Shown piece after piece: positions 2,318 through 48,278 of a stretch of 64,000 nucleotides of DNA; positions within the stretch are counted from its first letter, which is position 1, and each line of letters begins with the position of its first letter. The stretch spans positions 868,001 to 932,000 of the forward strand of contig NZ_JAFMPM010000006.1 of the NCBI RefSeq assembly GCF_017349355.1. Direction: 5' to 3'. Under the pieces are notes generated by a model. It was not told the origin of the DNA. It did not search any database and saw only the letters and a list, made by a program, of their open reading frames with translations. The position numbers were made by a program, and so were the translations under genes. This DNA comes from Thiothrix fructosivorans (GTDB lineage: Bacteria; Pseudomonadota; Gammaproteobacteria; Thiotrichales; Thiotrichaceae).

Positions 2318-3499
2318 ATGGCTTTCATCAAAATGACCGATCTGGATCTGAAGGGTAAACGTGTTCTGATCCGTTCCGACCTGAATGTTCCTGTCAAAGA
2401 CGGCAAAGTCACTTCCGACGCACGTATTACTGCTTCAATGGCGACCATCAAGTTCGCAATGGATGCGGGTGCAAAAGTCATGGTGACTTCTCACTTGGGT
2501 CGTCCGACCGAAGGCGAGTGGTCTGAAGCGGTTTCCCTGAAGCCGGTTGCTGATAATATTGCAGCGCGTTTGGGGTCAGACGTGCGCTTGATCAAGGATT
2601 GGGTTGAGGGTGGTTTTGAGGTAGCTGACGGCGAATTGGTCGTGCTGGAAAACTGCCGCGTTAACAAAGGCGAAAAGAAAAACGTTGAAGAAACCGCCAA
2701 GAAATACGCGGCGCTGTGTGATGTATTCGTGATGGATGCGTTTGGTACTGCGCACCGTGCTGAGGCTTCAACTTACGGCGTAGGCATGTTTGCTCCGGTT
2801 GCAGCAGCAGGTATGTTGTTGACCGAGGAATTGCTGGCGTTGGATAAAGCATTGGCAAACCCGGCGCGTCCAATGGTGGCTATCGTTGGCGGCTCTAAAG
2901 TTTCTACTAAGTTGACCGTGTTGGAAGCGTTGTCTGAGAAATGTGAACAGTTGGTGGTTGGCGGCGGTATTGCGAATACTTTCCTGAAAGCTACCGGTCA
3001 CAACGTGGGCAAGTCTTTGTGCGAAGATGATTTGGTTGACACAGCCAATGCGCTGATCACCAAAATGACCGCACGCGGCGCAATCATCCCCATCGCAGTG
3101 GATGTGGTTTGCGGCAAGAAATTCGACGCTAACGAACCAGCGGTTCTGAAAGACGCGAAAGATGTGGCTGACGACGACATGATTTTCGACATCGGCCCTA
3201 AATCTGCACAAGAACTAGTCGACATTATCATGAACGCTGGCACTGTCGTCTGGAATGGCCCGGTCGGTGTATTCGAGTTCGACCAATTCGGCGAAGGCAC
3301 GAAAGCGATTTCAATGGCAATGGCTGAAACTAAAGCGTTCACATTGGCAGGCGGCGGCGACACTATCGCTGCGATTCAGAAGTACGATATTTACGACAAA
3401 ATCTCCTACATCTCCACTGCGGGCGGTGCATTCCTCGAATACCTCGAAGGCAAAGTCCTCCCTGCGGTTGCCATGTTGGAAAAACGCGCTGAAGGTTAG
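2318..3499 (+). CDS. pgk: Phosphoglycerate kinase
   Basis: 393 residues, typical of bacterial Pgk. It transfers phosphate between 1,3-bisphosphoglycerate and ADP (reverse in the Calvin cycle). Visible are the signature [15 protein letters not shown] near residue 20, the substrate-binding SHLGRPTEG, the GGSKVSTKL segment, and the C-terminal nucleotide-binding loop AGGGDT followed by [13 protein letters not shown]. It has a clear aaggag ribosome site and follows gap in the same direction. Confidence 0.97.
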
Positions 3500-5101: not shown

Positions 5102-6166
5102 ATGGCTCTGATTTCATTACGTCAATTACTGGATCACGCGGCTGAAAACGGCTACGGGATGCCAGCGTTCAACGTCAACAACATGGAGCAAATCCACGCC
5201 ATCATGCAAGCGGCTGATGCGTGCAACTCCCCTGTTATCCTGCAAGGTTCTGCTGGTGCGCGTTCTTACGCAGGCGAACCATTCCTGCGTCACTTGGTAC
5301 TGGCTGCGGTTGAAATGTACCCGCATATTCCAGTGGTTATGCACCAAGACCACGGTTCTGAACCAGCAGTTTGCTTCCGTTCCATCCAGTCTGGCTTCTC
5401 ATCCGTGATGATGGATGGCTCGTTGATGGCGGATGCGAAAACTCCTTCAAGCTACGAATACAACGTTGAAACTACCCGTAAAGTGGTTGAACTGGCTCAT
5501 GCTTGCGGCGTTTCTGTGGAAGGCGAACTGGGTTGCTTGGGTTCACTCGAAACCGGCATGATGGGCGAAGAAGACGGTCACGGTGCAGAAGGTGTATTGG
5601 ATCATTCCCAATTGCTGACTGACCCAGAAGAAGCGGCTGATTTCGTGCGCAAAACTGGCGTTGACGCGCTGGCGATTGCGATTGGTACTTCACACGGTGC
5701 ATACAAGTTCACCAAGAAGCCTACCGGCAATGTATTGCGTATCGACCGTGTGAAAGAAATCCACGCTCGCATCCCTACCGTTCATTTGGTTATGCACGGC
5801 TCTTCTTCTGTGCCAGAAGATTGGCTCGAAATCATCAATAACTACGGCGGCGATATGGGTCAAACCTACGGCGTACCGGTTTCTGAAATTGTTGAAGGTA
5901 TCAAGCACGGTGTGCGTAAAGTTAACATCGACACTGACTTGCGTATGGCATCGACTGGTGCAATCCGTAAGCACTTGTTTGACAACAAGGCTAACTTCGA
6001 CCCACGCAAGTTCCTGAAAGAAGCAACCAAAGCGATGTCAGGCATTTGTAAAGACCGCTTTGAAGCGTTTGGTTGTGCCGGTCAAGCCAGCAAAATCAAA
6101 CCAGTTTCACTGGAAGTCATGTTTAATGAATACAAAGCTGGCAAGCTCGACCCGAAAGTGTCTTAA
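5102..6166 (+). CDS. fba: Class II fructose-1,6-bisphosphate aldolase (CbbA type)
   Basis: 354 residues. It is a zinc-dependent aldolase that cleaves or forms fructose-1,6-bisphosphate (and sedoheptulose-1,7-bisphosphate in autotrophs). Visible are [12 protein letters not shown] near the N-terminus, the metal-binding [11 protein letters not shown], the VEGELG segment with GSLETG, and [12 protein letters not shown] with the second metal histidine. Length and sequence style match the CbbA subgroup of Calvin-cycle bacteria. A strong cgaggag ribosome site precedes the ATG and a factor-independent terminator follows. Confidence 0.96.
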
Positions 6167-45432: not shown

Positions 45433-45954
45433 CTAATTCAATTGGTGTGCGGCGACTGGTGTTTGCATTTCATGGATGCTTGGTAACAATGCGGTCATTT
45501 TCCATTCAGATTGTTGCGCAGCATCATCCAGCAATTTACACAGCAAATGCAGCAAGTCATTGGTTAATGTCAGTTCAATGCCTTTATCGGCGTTATCTTT
45601 GAGTGCCAGTTTGAGCGCACCCTTATCTTGATGCTTAAAGCCTGCCTTGACGACCAGCAACGGGTCGTTACCCAGCGGCAAATGGTCTGATTCGCGGAAT
45701 GGGTGATTGAAAGCTGCTTTGCTTTGCGCCCGCTCGTGTTCAAACGCCATAATTGCTTGGCGAGAATTATAGTCGCTGTGTTGCTTGACCGACGGTGATG
45801 ACATCAGCGCCTCTTGTAGTACTGGCCACAAGCGTGTCAAAAATCGGCGTGTTAGCCAGAAGCGAAATTCTTCTTCTGCCACGGTATTCATGCGCATGAG
45901 AATGCGGTCTTCTTCTTGTATGTAGCGAATTTGGATTTGTGCCGGAGCAGCCAT
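45433..45954 (-). CDS. Conserved hypothetical protein in the his-tat cluster
   Basis: 173 residues. Begins IQIRYIQEEDRILMRMNTVA and contains EEFRFWLTRRFLTRLWPVLQ; no catalytic motif, signal or membrane segment. It occupies the slot between hisF and hisE where hisI (phosphoribosyl-AMP cyclohydrolase) is often found, yet shows none of the HisI cysteines or the SRSR/LW motif. Spacing of 4 bases to hisF and 15 to hisE implies co-transcription. Function unknown. Confidence 0.75.
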   Translation of the reverse strand: MAAPAQIQIRYIQEEDRILMRMNTVAEEEFRFWLTRRFLTRLWPVLQEALMSSPSVKQHSDYNSRQAIMAFEHERAQSKAAFNHPFRESDHLPLGNDPLLVVKAGFKHQDKGALKLALKDNADKGIELTLTNDLLHLLCKLLDDAAQQSEWKMTALLPSIHEMQTPVAAHQLN

Positions 45955-45958
45955 TACA

Positions 45959-46732
45959 TTACAACCTCATCTCGATACCTTGTGCAGCCATGTAGCGTTT
46001 CGCATCGCCCACAGTGTATTCGCCGAAGTGGAAAATACTCGCAGCCAATACCGCATCCGCCCCACCTTTGAGAATACCATCGGCTAAGTGCTGCAAATTG
46101 CCCACGCCACCCGAAGCGATGAGTGGAATGCCAACGCGATCAGTAATCGCACGCGTCAGACCCAAATCGAAGCCGATTTTTGTGCCATCCCGATCCATGC
46201 TGGTTACCAGCAACTCACCCGCGCCAAATTGCGCCATTTTTTCTGCCCATGCGACTGCATCAATGCCCGTGCGTTTGCGTCCACCGTGGGTGAAAACTTC
46301 CCAGCGATCCGGTTCGCCCAGCTCGTTGACGCGCTTGGCATCAATGGCGACGACGATGCATTGCGAGCCGAAATAGTCAGTACATTCGCGCACTAGGTCG
46401 GGGTTAGTAATCGCAGCAGTGTTAATGCCGACTTTATCTGCCCCAGCATTCAACATGCGTCGCACGTCTTCGGGCTTGCGGATACCGCCACCGACGGTAA
46501 GCGGAATGAAGACCTGTGAAGCCACAGCTTCCACCATATGAATAATGGTATCGCGGTTGTCGGAGCTGGCGGTAATGTCAAGAAAGGTGATTTCGTCCGC
46601 ACCCTCGCGATTGTAACGAGCCGCAATTTCCACCGGATCACCCGCATCACGGATGTCAACGAAGTTCACGCCTTTGACAACGCGCCCGTTGTTCACGTCA
46701 AGGCAGGGGATGATGCGTTTGGCTAAACCCAT
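45959..46732 (-). CDS. hisF: Imidazole glycerol phosphate synthase, cyclase subunit
   Basis: 257 residues. The (beta/alpha)8 cyclase forms imidazole glycerol phosphate with ammonia from HisH. Catalytic Asp in [15 protein letters not shown] and Asp in [13 protein letters not shown] are present; phosphate loops VGGGIR and IASGGVG are clear. First gene of the hisF-unknown-hisE-tatABC run. Confidence 0.97.
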
Positions 46733-46900
46733 GAAAGTGACCTATCGTTAAAACTCAAGCCTGTATCCTATGCTGATTGACCGTTGGTAGGCAATGCTTT
46801 GACGCTCATCCTCTTTTGATTAGATTGCTACGTCCATTCTGGAGCAGGATTTGCAGCAGAGGGAAGTGTTAAGTATTGACCTCTTACATTTGTCCTCTGA

Positions 46901-46919
46901 CACTCAGACTTACTGAGTG
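46901..46919 (+). promoter_or_regulatory. Inverted repeat upstream of the Gly/Ser/Cys-rich gene
   Basis: CACTCAG and CTGAGTG form a perfect 7-bp stem with an ACTTA loop, 36 bases before the start codon. A TTGACC hexamer lies 20 bases upstream of it. It may be an operator or a 5'-leader hairpin. Confidence 0.4.
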
Positions 46920-46955
46920 AATAGGGATTTTCAATTGAGTACAAGGAGTTATGTT

Positions 46956-47474
46956 ATGACTATCGGTCTTCTGAGTAATCTTTTCAGCCACACTTCCAAC
47001 ACTTCTTCCTCTAGCACTGGTTGCGGCACTAGCGCTCCAAAACCTAGCACTGGTTCTTGCGGTGGCAGCTTCGGCGGCGGCATGTTGAGCGGTGGTGGTT
47101 CATTGGGTGGTTGCTTGTCCAACATGTTTGGCGGTTTCTCTGGTGGCATCAACGGCGGATCTCATGGCGGATCAAGTTCCAACGGTGGTTCTTCTTGCGG
47201 TACTAGCACGCCAAAACCTAGCACGGGTGGCTCTTGCGGTACTGGTTCTAGCGGCAGCACTGGCGGCACTAGCAACAGCGGCAATCCTTCTTGCGGCACA
47301 AACTCTAACAGCGGCACTAGCGGCAGCAACAGCGGCAATGGTTCTTGCGGTACTGGTTCTACTGGCGGTTCTAACGGTGGCAGCTCAAGCTCCAACGGTG
47401 GTTCTTCTTGCGGTACTGGTTCTAGCTGGAGTGGTTCTTCTAGCTGGGGCGGTAGCAAAGGCGGTCGTTGCTAA
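46956..47474 (+). CDS. Gly/Ser/Cys-rich low-complexity protein
   Basis: 172 residues, with an acaaggag ribosome site. After a short hydrophobic start (TIGLLSNLFSHTS) almost everything is Gly, Ser, Thr, Asn and Cys: nine cysteines, most within SCGTGS-type units, and two copies of the CGTSxPKPSTG block. There is no classical signal peptide. It could be a structural or disulfide-crosslinked surface protein (a sheath or holdfast component is one guess), or a precursor peptide; no modification genes are nearby. It lies alone on the + strand between hisF and hisA and has its own terminator. Confidence 0.7.
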   Translation: MTIGLLSNLFSHTSNTSSSSTGCGTSAPKPSTGSCGGSFGGGMLSGGGSLGGCLSNMFGGFSGGINGGSHGGSSSNGGSSCGTSTPKPSTGGSCGTGSSGSTGGTSNSGNPSCGTNSNSGTSGSNSGNGSCGTGSTGGSNGGSSSSNGGSSCGTGSSWSGSSSWGGSKGGRC

Positions 47475-47498
47475 TTGATTAGCAATGCTTGACTTGTG

Positions 47499-47530
47499 AC
47501 AGGGGGATGTTCGCTCATCCCCCTGTATAC
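47499..47530 (+). terminator. Terminator after the Gly/Ser/Cys-rich gene
   Basis: Perfect 11-bp stem ACAGGGGGATG / CATCCCCCTGT with a six-base loop. Because hisA ends convergently just beyond, it may stop transcription in both directions. Confidence 0.75.
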
Positions 47531-47543
47531 TATTTTGTATGGA

Positions 47544-48278
47544 TTAAGCGTATTGGTCGACGTAGCGTTGGGCTTCTGCCAAATCAATCGTACCTTCGTA
47601 GATCGACCGACCTAAGATTGCACCCATGATTCCCTGATCTTCTACCGCACACAGCGCCTTAATATCATCCATATTGGTGACACCGCCCGAAGCGACGACG
47701 GGAATATTGATGCTAGACGCGAGTTTGGCGGTTTCTTCCACGTTCACACCCGTCATCATGCCGTCACGCGCAATGTCAGTGTAAACAATCGCACTCACGC
47801 CCGCTTGTTCAAACTGCTTTGCCAGTTCTATTGCTGATACAGAAGAGACTTCTGCCCAACCATCCGTTGCCACCATGCCGTTTTTCGCATCAATACCGAC
47901 GATAATGTGACCGGGGAATTGCTGGCACAGGTCGATGACAAATTGCGGCTCTTGCACGGCTTTTGTGCCGATAATGCAATATTGCACGCCCGCTTCTAGA
48001 TACGCGGCAACCGTCGCCGCATCGCGGATACCACCGCCGATTTGCACCGGAACATTCGGGAAACGTGCCGCGACGGCGCGAACGACATCGCCATTCACAG
48101 GTTTACCTTCAAACGCACCGTTTAAATCGACTAAATGCAGGCGGCGTGCGCCCGCGTCTACCCAGCGTTGTGCCATCTCAACGGGGTTGCTGGCAAATAC
48201 GGTGGTGTCGTCCATACGACCTTGGCGCAGGCGTACACATTGACCGTCTTTTAAATCAATGGCGGGAATCAGTAGCAT
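47544..48278 (-). CDS. hisA: HisA, phosphoribosylformimino-AICAR phosphate isomerase
   Basis: 244 residues from the ATG behind aaggatg; a 47-codon longer frame runs back over the msrA start and is not used. It isomerises ProFAR to PRFAR in histidine synthesis. Motifs: [16 protein letters not shown] (catalytic Asp), VQIGGGIRD, and the [14 protein letters not shown] active-site Asp, VVASGGVT. It is divided from hisF by the Gly/Ser/Cys-rich gene and is divergent from msrA. Confidence 0.96.

Follow-up and report, generated by a model that had tools for sequence, protein, structure and literature searches.

The stretch of Thiothrix fructosivorans DNA analysed here (64,000 nucleotides, hereafter the window) contains a Gly/Ser/Cys repeat gene on the plus strand, at 46956–47474, which encodes a protein of 172 amino acids (MTIGLLSNLF...GGRC) that we refer to as the hisF-slot protein. 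The gene diverges from hisF (45959–46732, minus strand; NCBIfam TIGR00735) and converges with hisA (47544–48278, minus strand; NCBIfam TIGR00007)—by orientation, it lies outside the his transcripts and parts hisA from hisF. An NCBIfam scan of nine neighbours named eight of them, i.e., hisF, hisA, hisE, msrA, queG, tatA, tatB and tatC, and gave no match for the remaining ORF (45436–45954). On the left, hisF is followed on the minus strand by this unnamed ORF, hisE and tatABC, the general Tat genes located ca. 2 kb from the repeat gene; on the right, hisA (minus strand) is followed by msrA and queG (plus strand).

Several signals surround the gene. The good ribosome site claimed in the initial annotation was confirmed by eye as AAGGAG (46943–46948, plus strand), 7 nt 5' of the ATG, and AAGGA likewise precedes the ATG in the counterparts of the gene discussed below. 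The hairpins ascribed to the gene in that annotation held up in part: a strong, intrinsic-terminator-like hairpin lies between the gene and hisA (47499–47526, plus strand; fold z of -4.23, with 1 of 200 shuffles as good), whereas the 7-bp hairpin 5' of the ribosome site (46901–46919, plus strand) does not go beyond chance (fold z of -0.87, 37 of 200 shuffles as good). Between hisF and the gene lies a leader block (46752–46825, core at 46786–46811) that probably harbours divergent promoters; a candidate hisF promoter on its minus strand, TTGCCT-18-TAGGAT, was recognized by eye and falls below the scan threshold. We also noted a 16-base near-repeat (81%) flanking the gene, at 46784–46799 before it and at 47475–47490 just after it, which may be due to chance.

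The protein itself is as first described—low in complexity, with nine cysteines in 172 residues. The frame starts with MTIGLLSNLFSHTSNTSSSSTGCGTSAPKPSTG and ends in GGSKGGRC, and the product consists of 30.8% Gly, 29.7% Ser, 9.9% Thr and 7.6% Asn, with a sole Arg at residue 171. The Cys residues (23, 35, 53, 81, 94, 113, 131, 152 and 172) are spaced by gaps of 12–28 residues, ca. 19 on average, with one of them terminal; six of the nine stand in an SCG[TG] context. The repeats are loose, and Tandem Repeats Finder reported no tandem array at the gene. Searches of the protein against Pfam, NCBIfam, PHROG, PDB and plasmids gave no match, and neither did an Rfam scan of the window. The protein is predicted to be disordered, and AlphaFold2, run on the single sequence, returned no fold (mean pLDDT of 35.7), the models being too poor for a fold search. 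Hydropathy indicates that the protein is not hydrophobic; no Sec-like signal was visible by hydropathy and reading (the best 15-residue hydropathy is 0.73, at residue 40), and the twin-arginine motif is absent.

The frame at 46956–47474 is a real gene, as attested by its codon bias, a conserved N-terminus and same-place counterparts in other genomes. The openness of the frame alone is weak coding evidence (P of ca. 0.002 from base composition). Relative to 22 CDS of the genome's own ribosomal-protein region (L064), the codon adaptation index (CAI) was 0.768 for the gene, 0.648 for hisF and 0.683 for hisA; none of 5000 random recodings, for which codon frequencies were taken from 25 ORFs of the window, reached the value of the gene (mean 0.563, maximum 0.680). 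With another reference of 27 plus-strand ORFs, the CAI was 0.784, and 4 of 61 background ORFs in the window scored higher. Codons 76–172, the repeat part, are more strongly biased (CAI of 0.831) than codons 1–75 (0.692, a value reached in 8 of 5000 draws), and duplication of repeats may therefore account for some of the bias. From these ribosomal-like codons, the gene is probably well expressed; the counterpart in genome G009 has a low CAI of 0.618. The highest ribosome-like codon bias in the window belongs to four other ORFs (115–1128, 1207–2211, 2318–3499 and 5102–6166), which are probably central carbon genes—a guess on our part.

To place the gene in a broader genomic context, we read the regions downstream of hisA and upstream of hisF in all genomes of a 16-member genus sample. 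The two his genes adjoin in five of them (G007, G010, G011, G013 and G015), with 13–14 bases between the aligned ends and, by reading, 1–2 bases from stop to start; measured against these genomes, the window gene does split a his cluster, as had been proposed. A Gly/Ser-rich gene pointing away from hisF—a slot gene—was found in eight genomes (G000, i.e., that of the window, and G002, G003, G004, G005, G006, G008 and G009), five of which carry it between hisA and hisF (G000, G002, G006, G008 and G009). The search for homologues beside the same his genes, suggested at the outset, was thus positive by place. In G002, G006 and G008, a kinase ORF also lies between hisA and hisF; in G005, the slot gene sits 1.8 kb from hisF, with a transposase-like ORF (by eye) in between. 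Other genes occupy the region upstream of hisF in the three remaining genomes (G001, G012 and G014). The 26-base leader core occurs in 6 of the 16 genomes at up to 3 mismatches, with a reversed control giving 0, and looser versions were seen by eye in G006, G003 and G001; the leader is therefore common to all eight slot bearers, six by pattern and two by eye. The window gene, divergent from hisF behind this common leader, belongs to the slot family. The leader block of G001 stands without a slot gene, and part of the block thus probably serves hisF. Slot bearers are scattered on a tree of hisA and hisF (midpoint-rooted, with weak inner support and odd composition, G003 being the longest branch), a distribution compatible with an ancestral gene that was repeatedly lost, or with transfer.

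Comparison of the eight slot proteins revealed a common layout filled with different repeats. The window protein (172 amino acids, 9 Cys) is rich in Gly, Ser, Thr, Asn and Cys; that of G009 (151 amino acids, 11 Cys) in Gly, Ser and Tyr; and that of G003 (184 amino acids, 4 Cys) in Gly and Ser with His and Trp. The proteins of G002 and G008 are identical (129 amino acids, 6 Cys) and built on (KAGSGK)n, those of G004 and G005 (109 and 113 amino acids, 4 Cys each) on Ser, Gly and Lys, and that of G006 (164 amino acids, 5 Cys) on Gly, Ser and Lys. All share with the window protein the place beside hisF, the direction, the leader and a Cys as the last or next-to-last residue (8 of 8); they differ from it in repeat make-up, and repeats and length vary between species. 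A GGRC end is found in G000, G003 and G009. The conservation of the frame in relatives, on which the original proposal depended, is best seen in G003, the most diverged genome, whose protein has both MTIGL[LI]S.L and GGRC in common with the window protein; over the first 75 amino acids the two align with a Smith–Waterman score of 110, unmatched in 2000 shuffles (maximum 101). The G003 gene was missed by both profile searches and found by reading the slot, its product scoring -37.2 bits against the N-terminal profile (its shuffles reached up to 3.7). Against the Lys-type N-terminal profile, 60 of 2000 shuffles scored as high as the window protein, and for the G009 protein the count was 0 of 2000 without composition correction and 633 of 2000 with it. 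The profile thus fails to separate the window protein from its shuffles, and separates the G009 protein only when composition is left uncorrected; place and leader are therefore what underlies the putative homology between the window protein and the Lys-type and G009 ones. A weak match in G057 (E of 2e-4), which has a similar start and W..L.QQQC, is located elsewhere, is not Gly-rich and was set aside.

The Lys-rich type differs further in that, in five genomes, the slot gene is immediately followed by an APH-type kinase ORF (two of the five were scanned), a feature absent beside the window gene and the G009 slot gene. The initial statement that no modifying enzymes are near hence stands for the eight named genes among the nine neighbours in the window and does not extend to these five relatives. 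The APH-family phosphotransferase ORFs include L033 3–932 (minus strand), L035 2045–3025 and L058 3023–3769 (both plus strand), two of the three having been scanned. A G+C-rich, hairpin-like stretch, seen by eye, separates the Lys-rich slot gene from the APH-family ORF.

A second family sharing the MTIGLLS start was identified elsewhere in Thiothrix genomes. Residues 1–83 of the window protein match the profile of eight such proteins with 25.3 bits, a score that was not attained in 2000 whole-sequence shuffles (maximum 5.5) or in 500 shuffles of the first 25 residues (maximum 7.8). The genus copies are L002–L005, L008, L012, L013 and L015, including a paralog in the same genome as the window gene (C6:1480953); named records (L039–L042) come from T. 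lacustris, an uncultured Thiothrix, Thiofilum flexile and T. caldifontis DSM 21228, the last of which carries the same protein as G002. For the order, the sample comprised 63 genomes, identical to those of the taxonomic family; the second family was detected in nine of them at E of 1e-5, eight of the nine belonging to this genus. Like the window protein, its members show MTIGLLS.LFG, an early Cys and a hydrophobic stretch with a Gly-rich part behind it; unlike the window protein, they occupy other genomic places, and five of the eight genus copies carry an in-frame C-terminal domain (..H..AE..ATGLG..F.P.D.A.IHP.LWDPIS..) that is absent from the window protein. The full-length profile A3 (E of 1e-5) finds the paralog and not the window gene. 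Another profile, A2, includes the window protein among its members, which makes its E-value for that protein circular, and the value was disregarded. We considered the window protein to be less likely a recent chimera of a second-family N-terminus and a slot gene, as the G003 slot protein has the same N-terminus. In six of the eight genus genomes with this family (G002, G003, G004, G008, G012 and G013; not in G000 and G009), a same-strand gene for a protein with an IPTL-CTERM-like tail precedes the second-family gene; two of the six preceding proteins were scanned and contained SdrD-B repeats together with IPTL-CTERM (L005 1–1293 and L013 3–1319). This pairing possibly represents a surface locus of Thiothrix. 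Some copies are broken: that of G009 is spread over frames, and that of G008 lies in two parts ca. 1.4 kb from each other, close to a transposase-like ORF recognized by eye. Weak matches L014 and L016 (with an internal stop) were dropped as unrelated. Of eight loci matched in another search, the four of alphaproteobacterial or proteobacterial origin (L043–L046) were also dropped, as they look amidohydrolase-like by eye and have an IHPVLWDP stretch in common.

We regard the window gene as belonging to a family that Thiothrix keeps in a fixed slot beside hisF and whose products are intrinsically disordered and low in complexity. As for the role of its product, our preferred prediction, held tentatively and at somewhat less than even confidence, is a disulfide-cross-linkable surface or matrix material. 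The combination of a short N-terminal hydrophobic segment, a disordered filler with spaced Cys and a terminal Cys suggests, at the level of sequence, a flexible, cross-linkable material. The MTIGLLS.LF segment could act as a targeting or anchoring tag and the Gly/Ser repeat as flexible filler, and, once the protein had left the reducing cytoplasm, the spaced and terminal Cys would pair as disulfides and thereby cross-link the chains into a material of the filament surface, be it mucous sheath, rosette holdfast or matrix. The sheath peptide of Leptothrix and Sphaerotilus is Gly- and Cys-rich, a likeness to the window protein in composition. A mucous sheath and rosettes are described for Thiothrix filaments in PMC8570282, in keeping with this prediction. 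The ribosomal-like codons, the N-terminal profile match, the presence of the slot in 8 of 16 genomes, the Cys end in all eight proteins, the low pLDDT with no fold and the frequent position of the second family behind an IPTL-CTERM-like protein all argue for a surface material. Against it stand the possibly repeat-inflated codon bias, the low CAI in G009 and, for dense cross-linking across the family, the G003, G004 and G005 counterparts with only four Cys; moreover, the Thiothrix sheath is mainly polysaccharide, and the slot gene is missing in 8 of 16 genomes and is thus not needed for a sheath.

Disulfides require an oxidising place and, consequently, export; with no visible Sec signal and no twin-arginine motif despite tatABC lying ca. 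2 kb away, an extracellular location is only putative. The same two absences favour a disordered protein that never leaves the cytoplasm and is thiol-rich or condensate-forming, e.g., a store of persulfides or thiols, as would suit the sulfur-oxidising genus and the lone, spaced Cys, most of them as SCG[TG]. We deem such a role rather unlikely, as a Cys count ranging from 4 to 11 would be odd for a thiol carrier, and the second MTIGLLS family often sits behind a surface-type protein. The free variation of repeats and length, the absence of the gene from half of the genomes and the broken second-family copies would, in turn, be expected if the gene had little function and evolved fast, drifting through slippage of its repeats in a transcribed gap where it is tolerated. 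This scenario, too, appears improbable to us considering that both ends, the ribosome site and the leader are common to the window and G003, that the codons are ribosomal-like and that the first 57 codons of the G004 and G005 genes differ, in admittedly small numbers, at 2 nonsynonymous of 131 sites versus 3 synonymous of 40.

Two known types of protein fit worse than surface or matrix material. Thiothrix makes sulfur globules, and the globule envelope proteins SgpA–D are Gly-rich, as the slot repeats are, and are likewise structural proteins of sulfur bacteria; a Gly-rich coat on sulfur inclusions would be the corresponding role. According to PMC10386293, T. caldifontis has six predicted sgp genes, and the Sgp of A. 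vinosum carry Sec signal peptides, with SgpA–C termed extremely hydrophobic; the window protein, lacking a visible signal and not being hydrophobic, is set apart from this description, and we consider an Sgp-like coat quite unlikely. More improbable by far is a precursor of a heterocycle-type (microcin B17-like) or other modified peptide. Microcin B17-type TOMM precursors are Gly/Ser/Cys-rich, as is the window protein, one YcaO gene exists in the genome, and the APH-type kinase accompanies the Lys-rich slot versions. Yet the window protein is long and repetitive, with no linked synthetase, its 172 residues show no evident split into leader and core, no modifying enzyme was found among the eight named of the nine neighbours scanned, and neither the window gene nor that of G009 has a kinase beside it; the only YcaO gene is ca. 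847 kb away, and its 577-amino-acid frame is about the size of E. coli YcaO.

A bolder extension of the surface-material reading, which we find doubtful, would turn the hisF slot into a site devoted to expressing a surface polymer that is rapidly re-invented; the MTIGLLS tag would then signal export by a non-Sec route or anchoring, in the second family as well. The N-terminal MTIGLLS and the C-terminal Cys would be kept or reshaped and the repeat in between swapped between species (G/S/T/N/C, G/S/Y/C, G/S/H/W and G/S/K), and in one type the repeat would come with a kinase that could modify the slot protein. Genes of low complexity tend to be written off as noise; in this case, a single site with a common leader, common protein ends and swapped repeats offers a testable system for the evolution of bacterial matrix proteins. 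Thiothrix is a cause of sludge bulking, and little is known about its sheath or rosette material, for which the slot genes are candidates. Structural proteins rich in Gly, Ser and Cys are familiar, and what is unusual here is a fixed slot in which the repeats are exchanged. Literature searches with related terms, in which most candidate papers were judged from listings, returned no description attributable to the slot protein, PMC10532065 gave no match to the searched terms, and the second MTIGLLS family is likewise without description as far as we searched. One member of that family in G004 (L012 1501–2472) is a 324-amino-acid protein with GGYSQGS-like repeats and the conserved C-terminal domain at its end, and an identical protein is present in Thiothrix lacustris DSM 21227 (L039).
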